NCBI RefSeq assembly: GCF_000297025.1
Contig: NZ_CAKD01000020.1
Location: forward strand, 1 to 64,000
Source: Lactobacillus pasteurii DSM 23907 = CRBIP 24.76
Lineage (GTDB): Bacteria > Bacillota > Bacilli > Lactobacillales > Lactobacillaceae
DNA: 64,000 bases
Direction of reading: 5' to 3'
Shown here: positions 2,537 through 61,345 of the stretch, piece after piece
Layout: each line of letters begins with the position of its first letter
How positions within the stretch are numbered: the first letter of the stretch is position 1
The notes under the pieces: generated by a model
The model's input: only the letters and a program-made list of their open reading frames with translations
The model's database searches: none
What the model was told of the DNA's origin: nothing
Program-made: the position numbers and the translations under genes

Positions 2537-3025
2537 ATGCGTGATCGAATTCCTTGGCGGCAGTATTTTATGATGCAGGCGCTAGTGATTGCTCAGCGCT
2601 CTACCTGTGATCGGGCTTTAGTCGGTAGCGTCTTAGTCAAAGACAACCGCATTATCGGCACAGGTTATAACGGAGCAGTTTCAGGACAGCCACACTGTGA
2701 TGATGTCGGACATCAGATGGTTGATGGCCACTGCGTTAGAACGATCCATTCTGAGATGAATTCTTTGATGCAATGTGCCAAAAATGGCGTTTCAACTAGC
2801 GAGACGGAAATCTACGTTACTCATTTTCCGTGCTACAATTGTACAAAGGCTTTAATTCAGGCGGGAATCAAGCGAATAAATTATTATTTCGATTATCGCG
2901 ACAACCCACTTGCAATACAACTTCTAAAGGATTGTGGGGTAGTATATGAACAAATTCATATTGACCGAAAATACGTTGAACAGTTGTCACATAAATTGGA
3001 AAGCGATGAAGAACATCATAAGTAG
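2537..3025 (+). CDS. comEB: ComE operon protein 2 / dCMP deaminase family
   Basis: Zinc-dependent cytidine/deoxycytidylate deaminase, making dUMP from dCMP for dTMP synthesis. The zinc-binding HSE motif is at about residues 71-73 (TIHSEMNSL) and the PCYNC motif at about 95-99 ([11 protein letters not shown]). The length of 162 residues fits ComEB/dCMP deaminase. The gene sits directly after trpS and overlaps the next gene by 20 bases, so it is not in a competence comE operon here. The name follows the B. subtilis homologue; a competence role is not implied. Confidence 0.88.
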
Positions 3026-3611
3026 TTTCTTTTTGATGTTGATCTTTTTGACTCAGAGTGCTTTTGTTCAGCCAAATATCGATGATCAGTCCAAAATACT
3101 CAATCGAGAAACTAAAGAATTGATTCAAGCTAAGAACAATCGCTACTTGCAAACGCGCGAAAAGCCGCAGATTGTAGTAATGACGGTTAATCGAGCTGAT
3201 AATTTGACGCCTAAGAAGTTGAATTCTTACAAGCGGACTTGTTTTATTGTCGTTGGTCAAAAAGGCAAAAAGCACAATGTACAGATTTTTTCTAGCAAGG
3301 ACTTGCATGGTGCCTTTACCGCGGATTCGCGCATGAATATTCTTAGAGCTGCTAGCGATGATCTTCGCAGCAGCAACAAGCAGACTTTCAACAAGGGCCT
3401 GCGCTTTGTTTTCCGCGCTTGTGCCACTAGAATTGATCAGCAATATCAATATACCTTGGACAAGTACGATTTAACTAATGAAGAGCAAAACAAGATTAGC
3501 CACCCTAACCGCATTGCTTTGCCAGTAGCCATGGGAATTGTAGTGATTGTTTTGGCCTTGGCTTATTTGTTTAAGACCGTCAGAGCTGAGCAAAGAATTT
3601 CTAAAGATTAG
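3006..3611 (+). CDS. TPM-domain membrane-anchored protein
   Basis: The start at 3006 has GGAAAG upstream and gives a clean signal-like N-terminus ([20 protein letters not shown]). The region of about residues 30-165 resembles the TPM (Psb32/MOLO-1 phosphatase-like) domain, with an [11 protein letters not shown] strand and acidic/helical segments. A single transmembrane helix follows near the C-terminus ([20 protein letters not shown]) with a short positive tail. The predicted topology is an extracytoplasmic domain held by the C-terminal anchor. The product is 201 residues. It is translationally coupled to comEB. The biochemical role in Firmicutes is not established. Confidence 0.65.
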
Positions 3612-3620
3612 CAAAAAAAT

Positions 3621-3649
3621 TTGACGATTGGCTTTTTTGAGTTTAAACT
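3621..3649 (+). promoter_or_regulatory. Promoter of the M-box/mgtA transcript
   Basis: TTGACG at 3621-3626, a 17-base spacer and TAAACT at 3644-3649. This places transcription start about 15-25 bases before the riboswitch core. A 12-base palindrome (GAGTTTAAACTC, 3639-3650) overlaps the -10 region. Confidence 0.6.
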
Positions 3650-3671
3650 CAATGCAGAAATAAAAAATAAA

Positions 3672-3893
3672 TAGATCGCAAATGAACTGTTAGGTGAGAC
3701 TCCTACGTGAACACACGCTATCGCCCAGAAACATCTAGAGATGCCAACGGGTTAAATAGGTGTCGTCGACTTAAGGCGAGATCCAGGTAGCTAGCATGTG
3801 CTTACGTCACGTAGTGTTAAAACTGAACGATTAGTTTAAACAAGCCTTATTTGGCATGGAGCTACCTTAGTGCATTTCTAAGGTAGCTTTTTT
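3672..3893 (+). promoter_or_regulatory. M-box magnesium riboswitch with expression-platform terminator
   Basis: The segment contains the conserved M-box blocks in order: CTGTTAGGTGAGACTCCTA (3687-3705), then CGCCCAGAAAC (about 3723-3733), GATGCCAACGGGT and GTCGTCGACTTAAGGCGAGA, then a closing strand. It lies between the upstream promoter and the mgtA start. M-box RNAs bind Mg2+ and switch off Mg2+ transporters; here the off state would be the strong hairpin at 3860-3893. Boundaries are approximate because the P1 pairing was judged by eye. Confidence 0.9.
3860..3893 (+). terminator. Expression-platform terminator of the M-box
   Basis: An 11-base perfect stem (AGCTACCTTAG / CTAAGGTAGCT) with loop TGCATTT and a run of six T. 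It lies 41 bases before the mgtA ATG, so read-through is needed for expression. Confidence 0.88.
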
Positions 3894-3934
3894 AGTTTGT
3901 TTGCCTCGTTGATTAAAAGCAAGGAGGAGTTTGC

Positions 3935-6625
3935 ATGTTAAATGGAAGAACTAAACGAAATGACACTGTAAATTTGCAGTTGGTTCAGAAAATCGCTAAA
4001 GAGACCAAGGGTGAAACTTTAGCGAGGCTTCATGCAAGTGCAGATGGCTTGTCCAGCCAAAGAGCGGAGCAGAATCGGGCAGAATATGGCTCAAATGATA
4101 TCGTCAGCAAGAGAAGAGATTCTCGGCTGAAATTTTTGGCCGAAGCCTTTTTGACGCCATTTACCATTGTATTGCTAATTTTGGCGACGATTTCGCTTTT
4201 TACTGATTATGTCTTTGCTTCAGCTGGCGAAAAAGACTTGAGCACAGTCATCATTATGATTGTGATGGTCTTTATCTCAGGTATTACTAGCTACATTCAA
4301 AATGTTCGTACCTCAAATGCTGTCGAAGACTTGCTTGGTCTGGTCTCAGTTACCACCAATATTCGCCGCGACGGCAAGAATCAAGAATTGCCAACTAGCG
4401 AAGTTGTCGTTGGGGATGTGATCAACTTGTCCGCTGGCGACATGGTGCCAGCTGATATGCGGCTTTTGACTAGCAAGGACTTGTTTTGTTCATCAAGTTC
4501 TTTGAACGGTGAATCAAATCCAGTCGAAAAGATTGCCAGCAAATTTCCTAAGATTGGCAGTGACAATGACTATCTTGATTATCCAAATATCCTTTACGAG
4601 GGAACAACAATTGTTTCTGGTTCAGGTCAAGGGGTAGTTTTTGCGACTGGAAATCAGACGATTTTTGGCAAACTTGCTCAAGACATTGCCAAAAACAAGA
4701 TCAAGGAAACCGCCTTTGATACGGGAATCAAGGATATTTCTAAATTGTTGATCATCATGACGGCGGTAATTGCACCACTTGTTTTTGCCATTAATGGCTT
4801 GACTAAGGGCAACTGGATCGATGCATTGATTTTTGCGATTGCAACAGCAGTTGGTTTGACCCCAGAAATGTTGCCAGTAATCGTGACTTCTAACTTGGTT
4901 AAGGGATCGGTTGAAATGTCCAAGCACGGCACAATCGTCAAGAAGATGAACTCAATCCAAAACTTCGGCTCAGCTGATGTGCTCTGTACTGACAAGACCG
5001 GTACTTTAACTCAAGATCGAGTTGTTTTAGAGCGGCACTATGATTTGGATATGACCGAAACCAACCGTGTTTTGGAATTGTCTTACTTGAATTCTTACTA
5101 CCAAACTGGAATGAAGGATTTGATCGACAAGGCCGTAATTGATGTGGCCGGGGATGAACTCAATGTTGACGATATTCAGCGCGACTACCACAAGATCGAT
5201 GAAATTCCGTTTGACTTTAGTCGCCGGAGAATGAGCGTAGTTGTGGCTAATTCCGATCGTCATCACGGCCAACACCTCTTGGTAACTAAGGGAGCAGCTG
5301 AAGAAATGCTGGATATTTCAACCAGCATCGAAAAGGGCGGACAGATTCTGCCTTTGACCAATCAGCGCAAGGAAGAAATCTTAGATAATATCAACGAGAT
5401 GAATGAAGATGGCTTGCGGGTGATCTTGATCGGCTACAAAGAAACTGATGCGCCAGTTGGAGAATTCTCTGTAGCTGATGAAAAAGAAATGATTCTAGTG
5501 GGCTACTTGGCCTTTCTTGATCCGCCAAAGGAGACCGCTAAGCAAGCTTTAGCCAAGCTAAAAGAAGACGGTATTACCGTTAAGATTTTGACTGGAGATA
5601 ATGAAGCAGTTACTCGGGCAATTGGTTTGCAAGTGGGACTTAATGTCGACACGGTTTATACGGGTGGCGATTTAATCGATAAGAGCGATGAAGAATTAGC
5701 GCAAATGGTGGAAGAATGCAATATTTTTGTTAAGCTTTCGCCAGAACTCAAGACTAAGATTATCGAAGTCTTGAAAGAAAATGGCCACACTGTTGCCTAC
5801 ATGGGTGACGGGATCAATGATGCGCCAGCAATGAAAACGGCTGATGTTTCAATCTCCGTTGATACAGCGGTTGACATTGCCAAGGAATCCGCCGATATTA
5901 TCTTGCTGCAAAAGGATTTAAACGTGCTTGAACACGGGGTTTTGATTGGTCGCAAGATCTTCGGCAATACGATGAAGTATATCAAGATTACTTTGTCATC
6001 TAACTTCGGCAATATCTTGTCGATTCTTGTCGCATCGTCATTTTTGCCATTCTTACCAATGCTTCCTTTGCAATTGCTGATTTTGGACTTGCTTTACGGA
6101 ACTAGTTGCTTGTCCTTGCCATTTGACAGCATGTCGCAGGAATATCTAGAACAGCCAAGAACTTGGTCAACTAAGAAATTGCCTAAGTTTATGTTTTACT
6201 TTGGACCAACTTCCTCAATCTTTGACATCATCACTTTTGCAATTTTGTTCTTTGTCATTTGTCCACACTTAACTGGTGGTGACTACGCTAGTTTATCTCT
6301 AGCCCAAAAGGCCAGCTTTATTGCCATCTTCCACACTGGCTGGTTTGTGGAAAGTCTGTGGACGCAAGAAATGGTCATCCATGCCTTGCGCGACAAGGGA
6401 TTGCCATTTGTTAAGCAGCGTGCTTCTTGGTCAGTGATGATGGCCACCTTTGGCGCTGGAGTGATTGGTACATTGCTTCCATTTTCTGGCTTGCGAGCAA
6501 GCTTAGACTTTGGCAAGTTGCCAATTGACTTTATTTGGATCGTCTTTGTTTTGCTGATTTTGTATATTATGCTGACAATGATCGTCAAGAAGTTCTACAT
6601 GCGCAAAGAGAAGTTTTTAATTTAA
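3935..6625 (+). CDS. mgtA: Magnesium-transporting P-type ATPase (MgtA/P3B type)
   Basis: Membrane ATPase importing Mg2+. It has the phosphorylation motif DKTGTLTQD with Asp at about residue 353, NGES in the actuator domain (LNGESNPVEK, as in MgtA where other P-types have TGES), TGDN in the nucleotide domain, and the GDGINDAP hinge at about residue 623. Transmembrane pairs precede and follow these domains. The length of 896 residues is typical. The ATG is preceded by AAGGAGG. Control by the M-box directly upstream supports Mg2+ as substrate. It is followed by a hairpin terminator that is duplicated at 10297-10351. Confidence 0.95.
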   Translation: MLNGRTKRNDTVNLQLVQKIAKETKGETLARLHASADGLSSQRAEQNRAEYGSNDIVSKRRDSRLKFLAEAFLTPFTIVLLILATISLFTDYVFASAGEKDLSTVIIMIVMVFISGITSYIQNVRTSNAVEDLLGLVSVTTNIRRDGKNQELPTSEVVVGDVINLSAGDMVPADMRLLTSKDLFCSSSSLNGESNPVEKIASKFPKIGSDNDYLDYPNILYEGTTIVSGSGQGVVFATGNQTIFGKLAQDIAKNKIKETAFDTGIKDISKLLIIMTAVIAPLVFAINGLTKGNWIDALIFAIATAVGLTPEMLPVIVTSNLVKGSVEMSKHGTIVKKMNSIQNFGSADVLCTDKTGTLTQDRVVLERHYDLDMTETNRVLELSYLNSYYQTGMKDLIDKAVIDVAGDELNVDDIQRDYHKIDEIPFDFSRRRMSVVVANSDRHHGQHLLVTKGAAEEMLDISTSIEKGGQILPLTNQRKEEILDNINEMNEDGLRVILIGYKETDAPVGEFSVADEKEMILVGYLAFLDPPKETAKQALAKLKEDGITVKILTGDNEAVTRAIGLQVGLNVDTVYTGGDLIDKSDEELAQMVEECNIFVKLSPELKTKIIEVLKENGHTVAYMGDGINDAPAMKTADVSISVDTAVDIAKESADIILLQKDLNVLEHGVLIGRKIFGNTMKYIKITLSSNFGNILSILVASSFLPFLPMLPLQLLILDLLYGTSCLSLPFDSMSQEYLEQPRTWSTKKLPKFMFYFGPTSSIFDIITFAILFFVICPHLTGGDYASLSLAQKASFIAIFHTGWFVESLWTQEMVIHALRDKGLPFVKQRASWSVMMATFGAGVIGTLLPFSGLRASLDFGKLPIDFIWIVFVLLILYIMLTMIVKKFYMRKEKFLI

Positions 6626-6719
6626 ATAGAATATTAAAATAGCCAGAATGCATTTTCCCTAGTAGTAGGGATGCATTCTGGCTTTTTGCTAATCTTTGCA
6701 AGGTGAGCAAGTCCTTCAT
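6585..6719 (-). CDS. Possible 44-residue peptide with class III lanthipeptide-like leader start
   Basis: A minus-strand ATG at 6719 has a near-perfect AAGGAGGT ribosome binding site with about 8 bases of spacing. The product begins MKDLLTLQRLAK, which matches the hydrophobic-X-Leu-Gln motif of class III lanthipeptide leaders (RamS and LabA type). The rest is read from the terminator repeat (SQNASLLLGKMHSGY) and then antisense to the mgtA 3' end, closing at TGA. A TATAAT lies upstream on the minus strand near 6787. Either this is a truncated precursor gene whose original core was lost at the repeat, or a chance ORF behind a good ribosome binding site. Translation is unproven. Confidence 0.3.
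   Translation of the reverse strand: MKDLLTLQRLAKSQNASLLLGKMHSGYFNILFKLKTSLCACRTS
6635..6689 (+). terminator. mgtA terminator; left copy of a 55-bp direct repeat
   Basis: A long hairpin: outer stem AGCCAGAATGCAT / ATGCATTCTGGCT, an inner CCCTA/TAGGG stem, then TTTTT. The whole 55-base block recurs at 10297-10351 with one substitution (C here at 6651, T there), bracketing the A+T-rich ABC-transporter segment. Confidence 0.9.
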
Positions 6720-6744
6720 ATGTGCCACCTCCTTCTTAAATTTT

Positions 6745-6762
6745 ACAAATACGAATATTTGT
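6745..6762. promoter_or_regulatory. Inverted repeat upstream of the leader-like mini-ORF
   Basis: Perfect 7-base arms (ACAAATA / TATTTGT) with a 4-base centre lie between the minus-strand ribosome binding site and its TATAAT. It could be an operator or a small mRNA hairpin; no regulator gene lies in the cassette. Confidence 0.35.
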
Positions 6763-6858
6763 GTATCTAAATATAGAGCTTTTTATTATAAAAATTAAGA
6801 TAAATGTTGAAAAAATATTATAAATGATTAAAATTATAAAGTGATAGGTGGTGGTACC

Positions 6859-8448
6859 ATGAATTTCTTTAATTTTATAAAGAGAAATAGATTATTTTTA
6901 TTTTTAACTTCGATTGCAATAATACTGATATCGATGTTAAGTTCGATTAATAATTATATTGCTATTCCAATGATATCGGCATTACAATACAGAAAATTGA
7001 ATAAATTTTGGACTTTAATAATTATCAATATTTTTATTGGAATTACATATTATGTAGTTAAAGTATTATTGGACTATTTAATTGAAAGAAAAATTCAAAA
7101 GTACCTTCTTAGTCTAAGAATAAATATTTTATCAAATCTATATTTCTTAAGATCAACCGATGACATTTCAGAATTACAGAATGATTTGATTAATAAATTT
7201 CAGGAAATTGAAAATGGCTATTTTTTGCCTATTTTTAGTATTATTCAATCTATAGTAACGATCATAGTTATATTTTTAACGATTAGTAGAATAAATATTG
7301 GTTTAAGCTTTTTTTTGATTATAACGGCTACGTTAACTTTGATAACATCTAAGATATCTGGAAGAAGATTGGATGCAATAGTTAAAATTGTTGCTGATAA
7401 AAAAGAGGTATTAATCAAACAAATAGGAGAATGGTTTCCAACTTTGAATTTAGTTAGAGATTTTCATGTAGAAGCTGTTTTGTATGATGAAATTCTAGCT
7501 AAAAGTCAAGAACTAGAAAATGCAAAAATTGATAAAGCTAAAATAGAACAAGACAATGATTTCTTGATTGATAATTCAGCGAATTTGATAAAAGTCATTT
7601 TGCTCATGATAGTTGCGTTTTTGGTTTACAGGAATTATTTAACAATTGGAGTGTATTCTGCAATTGGTGGATTTTTATATAGCATCTTAGAATCGATGAG
7701 AACAATTACTAGTGGTTTGACTTTAATAAGAGGAACAAAAGATATTAGAAATCAAATCGATAAAAAATTGTCTGATCACAATCAGAGAGAAGAAATCAAT
7801 AGTAGAGATTTTCAGATGCTCAAGGTTAGTGATTTAAAAGTTTACTTTAAGACTGGTGAAAACATTTCTTTTCCTGATTTTGAAATAAAAAAGGGAGAAA
7901 AAGTGTTACTTACAGGTGATTCGGGAGTAGGTAAGAGTACATTGCTGCGAGCTATATTAGGGCTTGAGAAAAATATTACAGGAAAAATTGAGTTTATAGC
8001 ACCGGATCAGAGAATCGTGAAGTTCAATTCATATGATATAGGATATATACAACAAAATCCTGTTCTATTTCCGGGAACAATTAAAGACAACATATCGATG
8101 TTTGATGACGATAAACAGTTAATGTTGCGTATAAATAAAAAAATAGAACTAATGTGCTTTAATTCAGATCTTTTAACGTTTTCTCAAGGACTAAATACAA
8201 GAATTGAGTCATCGGATTCTTGGCTATCTGGTGGGCAAAAACAAAAAATTGTGCTAATCAGAAATAGTATTATAGAAAAACCAATTTTTTTAGTAGACGA
8301 AGCAACAAGCGCTATTGATGCAAAAGCAAGGGTAAAAATTATTCAAGAGTTTTTAAAAACAGATGCGACTGTAGTATGGATAGAACATAACTTGAATAAG
8401 CAGATAGTTAATTTATTTGATAGAGAGATAAATTTGAATAATGGGTAG
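6859..8448 (+). CDS. ABC exporter half-transporter (permease-ATPase fusion) 1
   Basis: Fused six-helix membrane domain (about residues 1-300) and ATPase domain, the layout of type IV exporters that work as dimers. The ATPase is complete: Walker A GDSGVGKST at about 353, a Q-loop in YIQQNPVLF, signature LSGGQKQK at about 455, Walker B IFLVDEATSAID with catalytic Glu at about 480, and a switch His in VWIEHN. The start at 6859 follows AGGTGGTGG; the GTG at 6841 in the same frame lacks a ribosome binding site. Length is 529 residues. It is followed within 11 bases by the lanthionine synthetase-like fragment and then the second exporter, so the pair may form a heterodimer. The substrate is unknown; a peptide is inferred only from context. 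Confidence 0.85.
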   Translation: MNFFNFIKRNRLFLFLTSIAIILISMLSSINNYIAIPMISALQYRKLNKFWTLIIINIFIGITYYVVKVLLDYLIERKIQKYLLSLRINILSNLYFLRSTDDISELQNDLINKFQEIENGYFLPIFSIIQSIVTIIVIFLTISRINIGLSFFLIITATLTLITSKISGRRLDAIVKIVADKKEVLIKQIGEWFPTLNLVRDFHVEAVLYDEILAKSQELENAKIDKAKIEQDNDFLIDNSANLIKVILLMIVAFLVYRNYLTIGVYSAIGGFLYSILESMRTITSGLTLIRGTKDIRNQIDKKLSDHNQREEINSRDFQMLKVSDLKVYFKTGENISFPDFEIKKGEKVLLTGDSGVGKSTLLRAILGLEKNITGKIEFIAPDQRIVKFNSYDIGYIQQNPVLFPGTIKDNISMFDDDKQLMLRINKKIELMCFNSDLLTFSQGLNTRIESSDSWLSGGQKQKIVLIRNSIIEKPIFLVDEATSAIDAKARVKIIQEFLKTDATVVWIEHNLNKQIVNLFDREINLNNG

Positions 8449-8459
8449 GTGTGGTTGCT

Positions 8460-8684
8460 GTGAAAACTTTGCAAAACACAAAAGAATATAATCGTGTAGA
8501 TATTCTACCAAGTTTTATAACAGATGTAGATTTGCTAAATATAGCAAGAGATGAAGGAGAAACATTTTTACAAATAAACCTCTCAGATTGCAAATTGCCA
8601 GATCAGGGTTTTAAAATACATATTTCGACAACTCTAGCTAATTATCAAAGAACATTAGATGCGGTTTTTAATTTTTGTTATTGA
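8460..8684 (+). pseudogene. N-terminal fragment resembling a class III lanthionine synthetase (LanKC)
   Basis: The 74 codons from GTG 8460 (AGGTG ribosome binding site in the end of the preceding gene; GTG 8451 is an alternative) end at TGA right before the next gene's ribosome binding site. Residues 46-62 read LPDQGFKIHISTTLANY, which I recognise as the N-terminal signature of LanKC/RamC-type enzymes (LPxQGWKIHVSxTxDNA), followed by a helix ending in a Cys. Full LanKC proteins are around 850-900 residues with lyase, kinase and cyclase domains; all but the first part is missing. Either a deletion removed about 2.4 kb, or this is a stand-alone small protein sharing that fold. Not confirmed by any search. 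Confidence 0.5.
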
Positions 8685-8705
8685 CATGGCAGAAAGGTTA
8701 AAAAT

Positions 8706-10304
8706 ATGATTTCAATAAATAATATGTTGAGACAAAACCTAGTTAGATCTGCTACTATTCTTTTATCATGTATACTTTCAGCATTACTAACTGTTTTCGT
8801 ACGATACAATCTAACTTGGCAGGCTAACCTGTTGCAAAAAAATGATTTTAAAGGATTTTTCTTTCTATCAATAATTAGTCTATTGGCATACATATTAGGA
8901 ACTTTTTTAAACTATTTCGGTACATATTATTTACTTTCGAAAAATATTCAGCAATATTCTCATTCAATTCGAGCAGAACTATTAAAAAGGTATAGCAGTG
9001 ATCTTGTTGTTAGCAAAGCTAAGAATGATATGGTTAACAATATTGAAATTATTGAAAATAGGTACTTTATTTTATTGGTAGCATTATTTGATAATTTTTG
9101 TTTACTAATATTCTCTATTTTAGCCATTTTGTCTTTACACTGGATAATTGTAATTACAACTTTAGCCTTAGCAATTATATTATTAAAATTACCAGATATA
9201 TTTAAAAGAGTTTTGGAAGAGACAAGTTTCTCTACCTCAAATCAGACAAAAAATTATATTGAGTCCATTGCAAATTGGGTTAATGGGTTAGATATTTTGC
9301 GTAGATTTAATAAATATGATGTATATACTAGAAAATTGAGTATAGCTTCAAAACTATACACTGATGCATGTATAAAAAATATAAGAGTAGGCAAAAGTGC
9401 ATCATTAGTAGTAATTGTAGGTAACGTTGTTGCTCAATTAATGATTTTAGCTTTAACAGGTATATTGATAATTAATAGCGCAGTGCCTTTTGGTGCGATT
9501 TTTAGCATAGGTACGCTCATTGGTTATACTTTTAGTTATGTTGTAATACTTGCTAATGGATTAATCCAGATGAAGAGTGGTGGAGCAGTTGTTAAACAAC
9601 TTAACTCACAATTAAATCAAGGACCTGTAAAGGTGAATGAAGTTTCGGATTACCAAGTTGAAAAATATATAATTAAAGATGTAAGCATTAAGTTCGATAA
9701 TGGTACTAAAATTTTATATCCAAATATAGATATTGACTATGGCGAAAAAATACTATTAACCGGGCAGTCGGGCACGGGAAAATCTAGCCTATTCAAGGTG
9801 TTGTTAGGTCAGTTGCAAACTGCAACTGGAGAAATTGAAGTTATTGATAAAAATGGAAAAACTTATCCATTAGAAAGCGCTAATATCGGTTATGTACCTC
9901 AAGATCCAATTTTATTACCCGCCTCGATTATTGATAATATTACGATGTTTTCTTCAAATTTACGAGCACAGGCTCTGGAGATAATTGAACAAGTAAAGCT
10001 GAAAAAAGATATAAATAAGTTTAGAGACGGTGTTGATAGCTTGATAAATGCGGCTGGTAGTAATTTATCAGGAGGACAAAAGCAAAAGATAATTTTAGCA
10101 AGGACATTACTTTATAAAAAGCCGTTAATTCTAATAGATGAGGGTACAAGTGCAATTGATGCGCGCAGTTCTGAAGAAATATTAAGAGTTGTAACTAATA
10201 TTGATGCGACTGTTATTGTGATTGGACATAATTTATCAAGTAGTATGAAGAAACTATTTGATAAGGAGATTACATTACAACCCATTGATCCAGATCTAAA
10301 ATAG
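8706..10304 (+). CDS. ABC exporter half-transporter (permease-ATPase fusion) 2
   Basis: Same architecture as the exporter at 6859: six predicted helices, then an ATPase domain with Walker A GQSGTGKSS at about 353, Q-loop YVPQDPILL, signature LSGGQKQK at about 454, Walker B LILIDEGTSAID and switch His in VIGHNL. All catalytic residues are present in both proteins, so neither is an obviously degenerate half. An AGAAAGG ribosome binding site precedes the ATG. The length of 532 residues matches exporter 1, but the sequences are only distantly similar, as in heterodimeric exporters. The last two codons and the TAG stop lie inside the right-hand copy of the terminator repeat, so the gene's end is also the cassette junction. 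Confidence 0.85.
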   Translation: MISINNMLRQNLVRSATILLSCILSALLTVFVRYNLTWQANLLQKNDFKGFFFLSIISLLAYILGTFLNYFGTYYLLSKNIQQYSHSIRAELLKRYSSDLVVSKAKNDMVNNIEIIENRYFILLVALFDNFCLLIFSILAILSLHWIIVITTLALAIILLKLPDIFKRVLEETSFSTSNQTKNYIESIANWVNGLDILRRFNKYDVYTRKLSIASKLYTDACIKNIRVGKSASLVVIVGNVVAQLMILALTGILIINSAVPFGAIFSIGTLIGYTFSYVVILANGLIQMKSGGAVVKQLNSQLNQGPVKVNEVSDYQVEKYIIKDVSIKFDNGTKILYPNIDIDYGEKILLTGQSGTGKSSLFKVLLGQLQTATGEIEVIDKNGKTYPLESANIGYVPQDPILLPASIIDNITMFSSNLRAQALEIIEQVKLKKDINKFRDGVDSLINAAGSNLSGGQKQKIILARTLLYKKPLILIDEGTSAIDARSSEEILRVVTNIDATVIVIGHNLSSSMKKLFDKEITLQPIDPDLK

Positions 10305-10351
10305 CCAGAATGTATTTTCCCTAGTAGTAGGGATGCATTCTGGCTTTTTGC
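10297..10351 (+). terminator. Right copy of the 55-bp terminator repeat
   Basis: 54 of 55 bases match 6635-6689. The single change turns one stem pair into G-T, so the hairpin is retained and would terminate the ABC transcript 81 bases before metG. Confidence 0.9.
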
Positions 10352-10401
10352 ACTATTAATACTAGCCTAGCAAGTTTTGCATGGTGTATTATAGTAGATA
10401 A

Positions 10402-12416
<2,015 letters not shown>

Positions 12417-12417
<1 letters not shown>

Positions 12418-13199
12418 TGAAATTAATCGACAACCATACTCATTTAAATGATGAGCCATTCCGCGGAAAAGAATTGGCTTATTTGGAGCGGGCCGTTAGC
12501 TTGGGCGTTGATCAAGTAATTTGTGCTGGGCAAGATCCTGAATTCAACCAGCGCGCCATTGACCTAGCTGAACGTTTTGATGATGTATTTGCTACAGTTG
12601 GCTACTGCCCTGATGTGGCTAAGGACTACGACGACAAGGCAGAAGAGCTATTAATCAAGCAGCTTAAGCATCCTAAAGTCGTAGCCTTAGGAGAAGTGGG
12701 GCTAGACTATTATTGGGATGAGTCGCCAAGAGACGTGCAAAGGGCAGTCTTTGAAAGACAGGTTGAAATCGCTCATCAGATGCATTTGCCAGTTAACATC
12801 CATACTAGGGATGGTTTTGAAGATTGCTACGAAATCTTGAAGAAGGCTAACCTAGAATATGGCGCAATTTTGCACAACTTCAATGGAAATAAGGAGTGGC
12901 TGGAGAAGTTCTTGCCATTGAATATCAACTTTTCTTATTCTGGCGTTGTTTCCTTTACTAAGGCAACTGACGTGCATGAATCGGCTAAGCTAGTCCCACT
13001 TGACCGTATGCTAGTTGAAACCGATGCGCCATACTTAACGCCAAAGCCATATCGTGGCAAGCAAAATGAACCAGGCTATGTGCATTATGTTGCAAAAGCA
13101 ATTGCAGACTTGCGCGGAATGACTTTGGAAGAAGTTGCCCAAGTAACTTATGACAATACAAAGAGGATATACAATCTTGATAAAGAAGAAGCAATTTAA
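12417..13199 (+). CDS. tatD: TatD-family metal-dependent DNase
   Basis: TIM-barrel hydrolase of the amidohydrolase superfamily acting on DNA ends. Metal ligands are visible: the DNHTHLN start (His7, His9), GEVGLDYY (Glu at about 93), NIHTRDG, a HNFNG segment where HCFSG is more common, and VETDAPYL. The length of 260 residues is standard. It overlaps metG by one base and the start of rnmV by about 23 bases, indicating translational coupling. Confidence 0.92.
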
Positions 13200-13740
13200 T
13201 GCTGTTGTCGTGGTTGAAGGCAAGGATGATACCATCAGATTGCAGCAATTTTTCCCAGGAATAGAGACAATTGAAACCAATGGTTCAGCTGTTTCTGCTC
13301 AGGTTCTAGCGCAAATTAAACAGCTCAGTCAAAGTCGCGAGATTATTGTCTTTACAGATCCGGACTTTAATGGCGAAAGAATCCGCCGAATCGTTACTGA
13401 AGCTGTGCCGACTGCTAAGCAAGCCTTCATCACTCGTAAAGAGGGCGAGCCAGACAAGGCGGGATCTTTAGGAGTAGAACATGCTTCTAAAGAGGCTTTG
13501 GAGCGGGCTTTATCTGATTTGCACGAAGAAAAAGCAAGCTCAAGCGATCTGACTGAAGCAGATTTTCGCGACTTGGGCTTAGCCGGTGGCGCAGAAGCAA
13601 GAAAGCTGCGCGAAGCAGTGGGGATTAAACTGGGAGTTGGCTATGGTAACGCCAAGACTTTTTATAAGCGCTTGCAGACCTTTGGAATTTCTAAAGAGCA
13701 GTTGCTAGCAGCAATTAAGGTGGTAAAGAATGCAGAATAG
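13177..13740 (+). CDS. rnmV: Ribonuclease M5 (5S rRNA maturation)
   Basis: Toprim-domain nuclease that trims precursor 5S rRNA. The catalytic Glu is in VVVVEGKDD (Glu14 from the chosen start) and the DxD pair in [15 protein letters not shown] at 13177 is chosen: it has AAGAGG upstream and gives 187 residues beginning [15 protein letters not shown], close to the usual family length; the in-frame ATG at 13150 has no ribosome binding site and would be embedded deeper in tatD. It overlaps ksgA by 11 bases. Confidence 0.92.
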
Positions 13741-14611
13741 AATTGCAATTGATTCGCCAATTAGAACTCAAGCAATCGTTAATCGTTATTTTGTCAAAGC
13801 TAAAAAGAACCTTGGCCAAAACTTCTTGGTCGATCATGCAGCTATTATGGGAATTGTCGAAGCAGCTGAGGTCAAGCCAGGCGATCAAGTAATCGAAATC
13901 GGCCCTGGAATTGGGTCTTTGACTGAACAATTGCTTTTGGCTGGGGCTAAGGTTTTTGCTTATGAAGTGGACGATTCCTTGCCGGAAATTTTGCACAATG
14001 AACTTCCACAAAAAATTGGCGACGATGAACTAGCAGATCGTTTCAAGCTTTTGCTCAAGGATATCTTGCAGGCAGACTTTAGAAATGATATCGGCGATTT
14101 CTTTGACTTTGATCAGGAAATTAAGGTCGTAGCCAACTTGCCATACTACATTACAACTCCAATTATTTTTAGCTTGGCTAATTCCGACTTGAACTTTTCA
14201 TCCTTGACTTTGATGATGCAAAAAGAAGTCGCAGAGCGCCTTGAAGCGGGTCCTAATAGCAAGGATTATGGTCCATTGACCATTGCCGTTCAAACGCAGA
14301 TGCAGGTAGAGCTTGCCTTGACGGTTGGCCACAATTCCTTTATGCCAGCACCAAAAGTTGACTCTAGCGTAGTAGTGCTGAAGCCATTGGCCGAAAAGGT
14401 TGATGTTGGCGATGTGAAACATTTCAATCGAATTGTTAAAATTTGCTTTGCCCAAAGAAGAAAGACCTTGAACAACAACTTGAAGAATTTGGTTCAAGAT
14501 GCAGATAAACGTGCGGAAATTATTGAAAAATTAGGTCTTAAACCAACAGTTCGTCCAGAGAACCTGACCATTCAGCAGTTTATTGATTTGGCTAAAATGA
14601 TTCAATCATAA
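13730..14611 (+). CDS. ksgA: 16S rRNA dimethyladenosine transferase
   Basis: Methylates two adjacent adenosines near the 3' end of 16S rRNA (A1518/A1519 in E. coli numbering) using SAM. Motifs are GQNFLVD, the SAM-binding loop [13 protein letters not shown], and the catalytic NLPYYITTP segment. The ATG follows AAGGTGG. The length of 293 residues is typical. It is the last gene of the metG operon; veg follows with its own promoter. Confidence 0.95.
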
Positions 14612-35783: not shown

Positions 35784-35874
35784 TTTTCTATCTGCTTTTT
35801 TTGTTGTATGAATTTTTATTCGATATAACTGATAAAATATAAAAAATATAATTTTTGTTCAGTATATCTGATAA
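35775..35874. repeat. 100-bp direct repeat, left copy (contains terminator)
   Basis: Starts with hairpin AGCAGATAG / CTATCTGCT plus a seven-T run (terminator of the permease), then an A+T-rich part with two CTGATAAAAT elements 45 bases apart. It recurs at 37114-37211 with about seven differences, on the other side of the ATPase gene. Confidence 0.9.
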
Positions 35875-35895
35875 AATTAGAATGAGGTGGTAACA

Positions 35896-37113: not shown

Positions 37114-37211
37114 AGCAGATAGTTTTCTATCTGCTTTTTTGTTGCATGAATTTTCATTCGATATAACTGATAAAATATAAAAAACATATTTTTTGTTCAG
37201 TATATCTGATA
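37114..37211. repeat. 100-bp direct repeat, right copy (contains terminator)
   Basis: Same hairpin AGCAGATAG / CTATCTGCT with six T, here terminating the ATPase gene 7 bases after its stop, then the A+T-rich part ending TATATCTGATAG. Beyond 37211 the two copies diverge. Confidence 0.9.
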
Positions 37212-37228
37212 GATTTTGTGGAAATAAT

Positions 37229-61047: not shown

Positions 61048-61075
61048 TTAAATTGAAAAAAATCACAAAAAATGT

Positions 61076-61103
61076 TTGCAATCTCAAAAATGTTTGCTAT
61101 AAT
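61076..61103 (+). promoter_or_regulatory. Promoter of tRNA-Gly copy 1
   Basis: TTGCAA at 61076-61081, 16-base spacer, TATAAT at 61098-61103; the tRNA begins 13 bases on. Confidence 0.75.
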
Positions 61104-61115
61104 ATTTTTTGTATT

Positions 61116-61187
61116 GCGGAAGTAGTTCAGTGGTAGAACACAACCTTGCCATGGTTGGGGTCGCGGGTTCGAATCCCGTCTTCCGCT
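61116..61187 (+). tRNA. tRNA-Gly (anticodon GCC), copy 1
   Basis: Acceptor GCGGAAG / CTTCCGC, anticodon loop TTGCCAT in stem CAACC/GGTTG, T stem CGGGTTCGAATCCCG paired perfectly, discriminator T, no encoded CCA. Identical to the copy at 61265. Confidence 0.95.
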
Positions 61188-61224
61188 TAGGATTTGTTTT
61201 CAATCCTAAGCTTTAAAAAAGGGC

Positions 61225-61252
61225 TTGCAATCTATAAGTTGTTTGCTATAAT
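61225..61252 (+). promoter_or_regulatory. Promoter of tRNA-Gly copy 2
   Basis: TTGCAA at 61225-61230, 16-base spacer ending GTTTGC, TATAAT at 61247-61252; near-duplicate of the first tRNA promoter. Confidence 0.75.
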
Positions 61253-61264
61253 AATATCTGTATC

Positions 61265-61336
61265 GCGGAAGTAGTTCAGTGGTAGAACACAACCTTGCCA
61301 TGGTTGGGGTCGCGGGTTCGAATCCCGTCTTCCGCT
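61265..61336 (+). tRNA. tRNA-Gly (anticodon GCC), copy 2
   Basis: All 72 bases match copy 1. The promoter is duplicated too, so the unit arose by tandem duplication of about 149 bases. Confidence 0.95.
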
Positions 61337-61345
61337 TAAGAAAGA

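Follow-up and report, generated by a model that had tools for sequence, protein, structure and literature searches.

An A+T-rich block between mgtA and metG of Lactobacillus pasteurii is very probably a decayed class III lanthipeptide locus that kept two ABC exporters

The 64,000-nucleotide stretch of Lactobacillus pasteurii DSM 23907 analysed here (the window) is part of contig 11, 170,009 bases long, in a draft genome of 1.9 Mb and 30 contigs. Between mgtA, which ends at 6625, and metG, which starts at 10432, it carries an A+T-rich block with two ATP-binding cassette (ABC) exporter genes, both ends of lanKC, the gene of class III lanthipeptide synthetases, and the leader of a class III precursor. 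The features are listed below, each with the evidence on which it was called (ORF, open reading frame).

6585..6719, minus strand: class III precursor ORF, truncated; its leader MKDLLTLQRL is followed by the repeat and antisense mgtA in place of a core (ORF list, leader profile, homologous leaders)
6635..6689, plus strand: left copy of a 55-nt repeat, the mgtA terminator (repeat search, folding)
6690..10296, no strand: A+T-rich insert of foreign origin, spanning the 3607 bp from one repeat copy to the other (GC profile, third-position GC, and the relative G015 with one terminator)
6859..8448, plus strand: ABC1, ABC exporter of 529 aa, intact (ORF list, Pfam, ATPase motifs)
8460..8684, plus strand: N-terminal lanKC remnant, 74 codons, homology up to codon 73 (RamC_N, LanKC model, LanKC alignments)
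8668..8709, plus strand: C-terminal lanKC remnant in the +1 frame, LIFVIDMAERLKI and stop (pairwise tail score; weaker by profile test)
8706..10304, plus strand: ABC2, ABC exporter of 532 aa, intact save for a C-terminal end altered by the repeat (ORF list, Pfam, ATPase motifs)
10297..10351, plus strand: right copy of the 55-nt repeat, with the ABC2 stop codon in its first bases (repeat search)

A preliminary description of this DNA had singled out the block as A+T-rich, unlike its neighbours and bounded by repeats, and composition and borders bear this out. The GC content in 500-base windows is 0.42-0.44 just before 6500, 0.21-0.35 within the block and 0.43 after 10500, and GC at third codon positions is 22.3% in ABC1 and 21.4% in ABC2 compared to 47.2% in mgtA and 43.4% in metG. 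The two copies of the 55-nt direct repeat (6635-6689 and 10297-10351) are 98% identical, and the repeat folds as a terminator hairpin behind mgtA. A relative, G015, whose metG is 85% identical to that of the window, has a single terminator in a mgtA-metG gap of 133 bp; the window flanks, once joined, align to this gap, and the bases behind both repeat copies resemble G015. The metG locus was also compared in 29 loci, fetched out of 73 relatives with a metG match. A match to mgtA lies within 1.5 kb upstream of metG in 20 of them, and none of the 29 has a LanKC or exporter frame at 1e-5, so that the intact locus between mgtA and metG, for which the preliminary description had suggested searching in relatives, was not found there. 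The DNA of 6585-6860 gives short matches only in other genomes of the genus.

That the block is an element bringing a transposase or integrase of its own was rejected: the ORFs of at least 40 aa listed for 3000-14000 comprise, between the repeats, nothing but the exporters, the lanKC remnant and short frames. A known RNA element was rejected as well, no Rfam match at the gathering score being found in 6500-10500. Promoter-like sites are only slightly more numerous than expected (31 found versus 22.9, standard deviation 6.2, in shuffles) and no promoter is claimed.

The 74-codon piece, proposed beforehand to be LanKC-like, matches Pfam RamC_N with 35.8 bits (cut-off 27; E=7.2e-9) over 45 of 191 profile positions. 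Against the NCBIfam LanKC model it scores 33.8 bits, far below the full-length cut-off of 575, with 45 residues aligned. When compared with the LanKC proteins of the genus, the homology covers the whole ORF to Cys73 at 38-51% identity. The RamC_N match and these whole-length alignments reject a chance resemblance and, judged by its sequence, the product of the 74 codons is genuinely a piece of LanKC. One detail of the preliminary description has to be corrected: the LPxQGWKIH segment, placed there at the start of the synthetase, lies about 45-65 residues into these enzymes.

Directly after the Cys73 codon, the +1 frame encodes LIFVIDMAERLKI, followed by a TGA stop codon that shares bases with the ATG of ABC2. 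This stretch is the counterpart of the C-terminus of the Lactobacillus kefiranofaciens LanKC, IIYVIDLAKKMKIIS. Scored with BLOSUM against six LanKC tails it reaches 43 and is the only stretch of at least 33 on both strands of the 64 kb; none of 3000 shuffles of the 120-bp region attained this score (best 36). The remnant corresponds to the last 13 lanKC codons, and it overlaps the N-terminal remnant by 11 nt (8668-8678) as well as the ABC2 start codon. Since both lanKC ends are present and out of frame, lanKC has an internal, frame-breaking deletion; as the nearest relatives have LanKC frames of 737-796 aa, about 650-710 codons were lost. The 11-nt overlap of the two homologies suggests a deletion between short repeats.

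The rest of this lanKC was not found elsewhere in the assembly, where the LanKC profile hits only the remnant and a separate full-length lanKC on contig 30. These hits, together with the position of the junction inside a 170-kb contig, argue against an assembly artefact in which the source strain would carry a full lanKC at this place, an explanation that a draft of 30 contigs invites but that we regard as highly improbable.

The solved LanKC chain used for alignment is, from its name and residue numbers, presumably ThurKC. As given in passages of PMC10604976, the lyase residues of ThurKC are Lys65, His67, Lys94, Lys117, Asp152, Arg163 and Arg191, the Lys94 alanine variant yielded only unmodified peptide, and the leader binds in the kinase domain. 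The 74-aa fragment keeps Lys52 and His54, the counterparts of Lys65 and His67, that is two of the seven lyase residues, and it stops eight residues short of the counterpart of Lys94, without kinase and cyclase. A working class III locus has a LanKC with lyase, kinase and cyclase; here 73 N-terminal and 13 C-terminal codons are left. Because the essential lyase lysine, the kinase and the cyclase are missing, a working stand-alone domain is unlikely. The preliminary description had entertained a stripped-down exporter with such a domain. In a system of this kind the 74-aa protein would act with the exporters on a peptide encoded elsewhere, and an open ORF with a possible ribosome-binding site and the conserved Lys65/His67 counterparts fit it. 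Besides the missing lysine and the lack of the leader-binding kinase domain, the lanKC tail right behind the ORF marks a deletion, and no second such 74-aa protein was found, the closest matches in 397 genomes of the family being parts of longer frames. This system therefore has very little chance of being the right explanation.

At the left border, the minus-strand ORF 6719-6585 has AAGAAGGAGGTGGCACAT before its ATG and begins with MKDLLTLQRL, the leader and ribosome-binding site pointed out in the preliminary description. To score it, a leader profile made of five leaders of related loci was applied to those ATG starts of the 64 kb that have a ribosome-binding site, 64 in all. MKDLLTLQRL ranks first with 14.5 (next 9.1), a score reached in none of 100 window shuffles and none of 2000 shuffles of the local region. 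A small LQ-leader ORF lies divergently upstream of lanKC in all seven lactobacillus loci read from the nearest LanKC group, namely L076 and L080 (MEEMLKLQKL), L077 (MELMTSLQEL), L078 (MEELDKLQKL), L084 (MKELHKLQML), L108 (MKELLALQTL) and L164 (MQELIELQEL), and each leader is followed by a stretch with Cys and Ser/Thr. MKDLLTLQRL thus provides the LQ leader of a class III precursor, but no core with Ser/Thr and Cys stands behind it: past these residues the ORF continues into the repeat and antisense mgtA, and its native core is therefore missing.

Taken together, the two LanKC ends, the divergent leader and the full lanKC-exporter loci of relatives uphold the proposal that a class III locus lost most of its synthetase and its core. 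We consider it very likely that the block is a foreign, decayed class III lanthipeptide locus in which most of lanKC and the precursor core were lost and both exporters were spared. As most of lanKC and its frame are lost, no lanthipeptide can come from this locus, and a thioether-bridged product is excluded in practice by the missing parts.

ABC1 and ABC2 are complete exporters, as announced, although nearly rather than exactly equal in length: counted from ATG, ABC1 has 529 aa and ABC2 532 aa. Walker A, LSGGQ, Walker B and H-loop motifs are present in both, ABC_tran is above the Pfam cut-off in both and ABC_membrane scores 32.3 in ABC1 (cut-off 28), in agreement with the fused membrane and ATPase parts of such exporters. 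The family of about 530 residues to which they belong is abundant in the genus, ABC1 being matched at 1e-25 in 61 of 75 genomes. Among 20 exporter neighbourhoods, picked from the best exporter matches not beside a lanKC known beforehand, 17 have tandem exporters and 19 have no lanKC frame. The exception is L203, which holds the best relative of ABC2 (36%), intact and divergent from a lanKC in pieces. In an exporter tree, ABC1 and ABC2 stand on long branches among lanKC-linked and lone exporters, with no firm placement. The preliminary description had named relatives with the two exporters alone and no synthetase ever present as one finding that would overturn its reading: exporter pairs without synthetase are indeed common, but lanKC-linked ones exist too and both lanKC ends are found here.

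The abundance of the family, the many tandem pairs without lanKC and the tree, which does not separate ABC1 and ABC2 from lone exporters, are what one would also see if the block had the same origin while its exporters now served general efflux of drugs, lipids or peptides, with no remaining lanthipeptide link. By contrast, both lanKC ends and the leader remain, so that the lanthipeptide link is too young to have been erased. Given the same origin, we hold general efflux for rather unlikely.

The fate of related loci bears on why the exporters are still there. RamC_N was found in 29 of the 75 genus genomes at E 0.01, above the cut-off in 28. L177 (G054) and L094 (G017:C4), which have masked stretches and no scoreable lanKC frame, the G055 locus and L171 (Saccharicrinis) were left out of the lanKC counts. 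L079 and L084, two pieces of one locus, were counted once; L078 and L163, one L. kefiranofaciens locus in two strains, are both within the 29 full-length lanKC loci (otherwise 28). An intact exporter of the family lies within 3 kb of lanKC in 24 of these 29. In the other five, the exporter is cut by the contig end (L080), there is a partial match to another ABC gene (L109), or no exporter was seen (L112, L176 and L190, the last a 6-kb contig). A visibly broken exporter beside a full lanKC was found in 0 of 29. At seven more loci, a lyase-kinase frame has no cyclase frame or a separate one, and five of these have an intact exporter. LanKC-like frames that match lyase and kinase but not cyclase, about 440-450 aa long, were noticed in L088 (8040-9356), L089 (7998-9341), L186 and L191, and two genomes have a lanKC split into 505 and 376 codons (L183, L184).

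Ten lanKC loci are broken or partial; one of them, L111, is cut by the contig end, which leaves nine. An intact exporter is kept in five of the nine (G011, L086, L093, L203 and the window). A further case, on contig C16 of the window's own genome (L095), was missed by the profile: the first codons of lanKC are joined to the last, the exporter is intact and shares 92% DNA identity with its Lactobacillus delbrueckii counterpart, and the precursor, MKELHKLQLLAQKEVHSDVRRVTFYCKTNTVSCVK, is complete. This locus adjoins an EF-G-like GTPase of 639 aa and lies between identical 1604-bp repeats. G034 has an exporter without lanKC that is 96.2% identical in DNA to the lanKC-linked exporter of a Lactobacillus gasseri plasmid, an identity that starts 30 bp before the start codon. 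The ratio of nonsynonymous to synonymous substitution rates (dN/dS, omega) is 0.10 for C16 versus L. delbrueckii and 0.14 for G034 versus L. gasseri, values that reflect constraint over the whole divergence.

From these observations, the following course may be proposed. A foreign fragment in the order precursor (reverse), exporter 1, lanKC, exporter 2 would have come to lie in the mgtA terminator before metG; the terminator would have been duplicated, and the core of the precursor and the native stop of exporter 2 would have been lost. All of lanKC except its first 73 and last 13 codons would have been deleted, probably by short-repeat slippage. Because the deletion ends just short of the exporter 2 start signal, both exporter genes are still translatable, and they may have been kept as an orphan immunity remnant that exports the class III peptides of kin, or compounds like them. 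Loss of the synthetase beside an intact exporter is seen repeatedly and the reverse in 0 of 29 full lanKC loci, which is expected if the exporter protects; the same holds for the deletions in the window and C16, which spare the exporter start region. The same pattern could also arise from chance together with the usefulness of any exporter. Given the lanthipeptide origin, retention for protection against kin peptides has, in our estimate, slightly less than an even chance.

Another course is that the locus is simply dying, the deletions being recent and the exporters merely not hit yet. The lanKC remnants are indeed both still recognisable, no close relatives of ABC1 and ABC2 are there to show selection, and in L188 lanKC and exporter are both broken. 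Against it stand the repetition of the same outcome, the lack of visibly broken exporters beside an intact lanKC in the 29 loci, and the two deletions, in the window and C16, that stop just before the exporter. We judge mere decay unlikely.

Several points weigh against a decayed locus with protective exporters. By itself the position-specific profile made from the six tails gives the match little weight (rank 8 of 20051; 89 of 3000 shuffles of the local region; 30 window shuffles gave 248 hits), and the pairwise test with its score of 43 was run after the match had been seen, with the same six tails and another score than the profile. As the profile is far less telling than the pairwise score, the strength of the tail match comes from one closest relative. 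ABC_membrane scores 16.5 in ABC2, below the cut-off. Four of the nine broken loci show something else than an intact exporter: it is broken in L188, no family exporter is nearby in L085 and L187 (the latter begins at a contig end), and L110 is followed by a gene taken for a transporter of the major facilitator superfamily (MFS). The omega values of 0.10 and 0.14 belong to other exporters than ABC1 and ABC2 and include time before the synthetase loss. No closer relative of ABC2 was found in 397 family genomes, nor of ABC1 in 395 order genomes, so that selection after the deletion is not measurable at this locus. Lastly, retention needs no lanthipeptide link, since exporter pairs that stand alone, with no lanKC, are widespread in the genus.

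Beyond this locus, we put forward only tentatively that class III loci of lactobacilli repeatedly become exporter-only immunity islands through lanKC deletions that end before the exporter start, that the exporters persist and spread as orphan resistance against the class III peptides that neighbours make, and that many lone exporters and pairs of the genus are so derived; this wider proposal is doubtful.

Other observations were made in the window and at the loci compared. L110 encodes, at 7452-8096, a RamC_N-only protein of 214 aa that overlaps a 416-aa gene taken for the MFS transporter; this protein may be a lyase-only frame or another truncated lanKC. In L087 (4644-4690, 9229-9274) and L093 (8201-8246, 12786-12832), terminator-like direct repeats of 47 nt, 96% identical, bound the lanKC-exporter block and recall the repeat-bounded state of the window. 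L005 (7637-14199, contig C30 of the same genome) is a full-length class III-type locus with the precursor MSKNTEALEELLEKLEAEDKESEQLSWSTLSQNCFNQTN at 13581-13700, lanKC, an ABC exporter, a 242-aa ORF without Pfam match and an Rgg regulator. It is bounded by 291-nt direct repeats (98%), each with a 37-aa ORF that resembles the short hydrophobic Rgg pheromones. The window itself contains an 82-nt direct repeat (35797-35878 and 37135-37216; 93%, about 1.3 kb apart) and, at 61067-61341, two 126-nt units, 90% identical and spaced by 149 nt.

As to how class III producers among the lactobacilli protect themselves, the loci described here, in the window and in its relatives, suggest a candidate that can be tested, namely exporters of about 530 residues that outlive their synthetase. 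They also show how a ten-residue leader and two lanKC ends can identify an exporter pair as what is left of a peptide locus. Going by passages of PMC8960859 and PMC10673953, most of what is known of class III lanthipeptides in lactobacilli comes from genome mining; the former lists class III precursors in Lactobacillus, including Pre_181, and the latter describes LanKC proteins, with conserved residues, from lactobacilli of the bee gut. In Bacillus and Staphylococcus, class III loci are reported, in the part of PMC7268733 available, to have an ABC transporter but no protease, and an excerpt of PMC11594732 gives a class III precursor with LQ leader in a pig isolate, called P. lentus there. Decayed Lactobacillus bacteriocins are the subject of PMC6036575, as far as its available portion goes. 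A limited search of open-licence literature brought up no description of lactobacilli in which lanKC was deleted and the exporter retained.

The closest systems are the L. kefiranofaciens loci (ATCC 43761 contig, L078; ZW18 plasmid NZ_CP123736.1, L163), whose LanKC is 51-53% identical to the remnant. Like the window they have an LQ precursor divergent from lanKC and two tandem exporters; unlike it, their lanKC is full length and their precursor has a core. Their exporters, about 32-35% identical to those of the window, both lie on one side, divergent from lanKC, whereas the window exporters flank lanKC. The L. gasseri plasmid NZ_CP087960.1 (L164) has a LanKC with 48% identity over residues 15-73, a divergent LQ precursor and an exporter directly downstream, but it differs from the window by its single exporter and full-length lanKC. 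Contig C16, with its L. delbrueckii DSM 20074 relative (L084, L079), shares with the window the lanKC deletion joining first and last codons beside an intact exporter; its complete precursor, single exporter and identical 1604-bp flanking repeats set it apart. With ThurKC, as described in the accessible part of PMC10604976, the window shares the lyase KxH pair and the surrounding fold segment, and it lacks the rest of the lyase, all of the kinase and all of the cyclase. Finally, the enterococcal orphan ABC immunity transporters (Mr10EFGH, from a partial text of PMC10598978) resemble the window in being an ABC transporter of a bacteriocin locus without the bacteriocin gene; they concern other bacteriocin classes and another transporter, and the self-immunity role that is reported there would, by our reading, fall here to ABC1 and ABC2.

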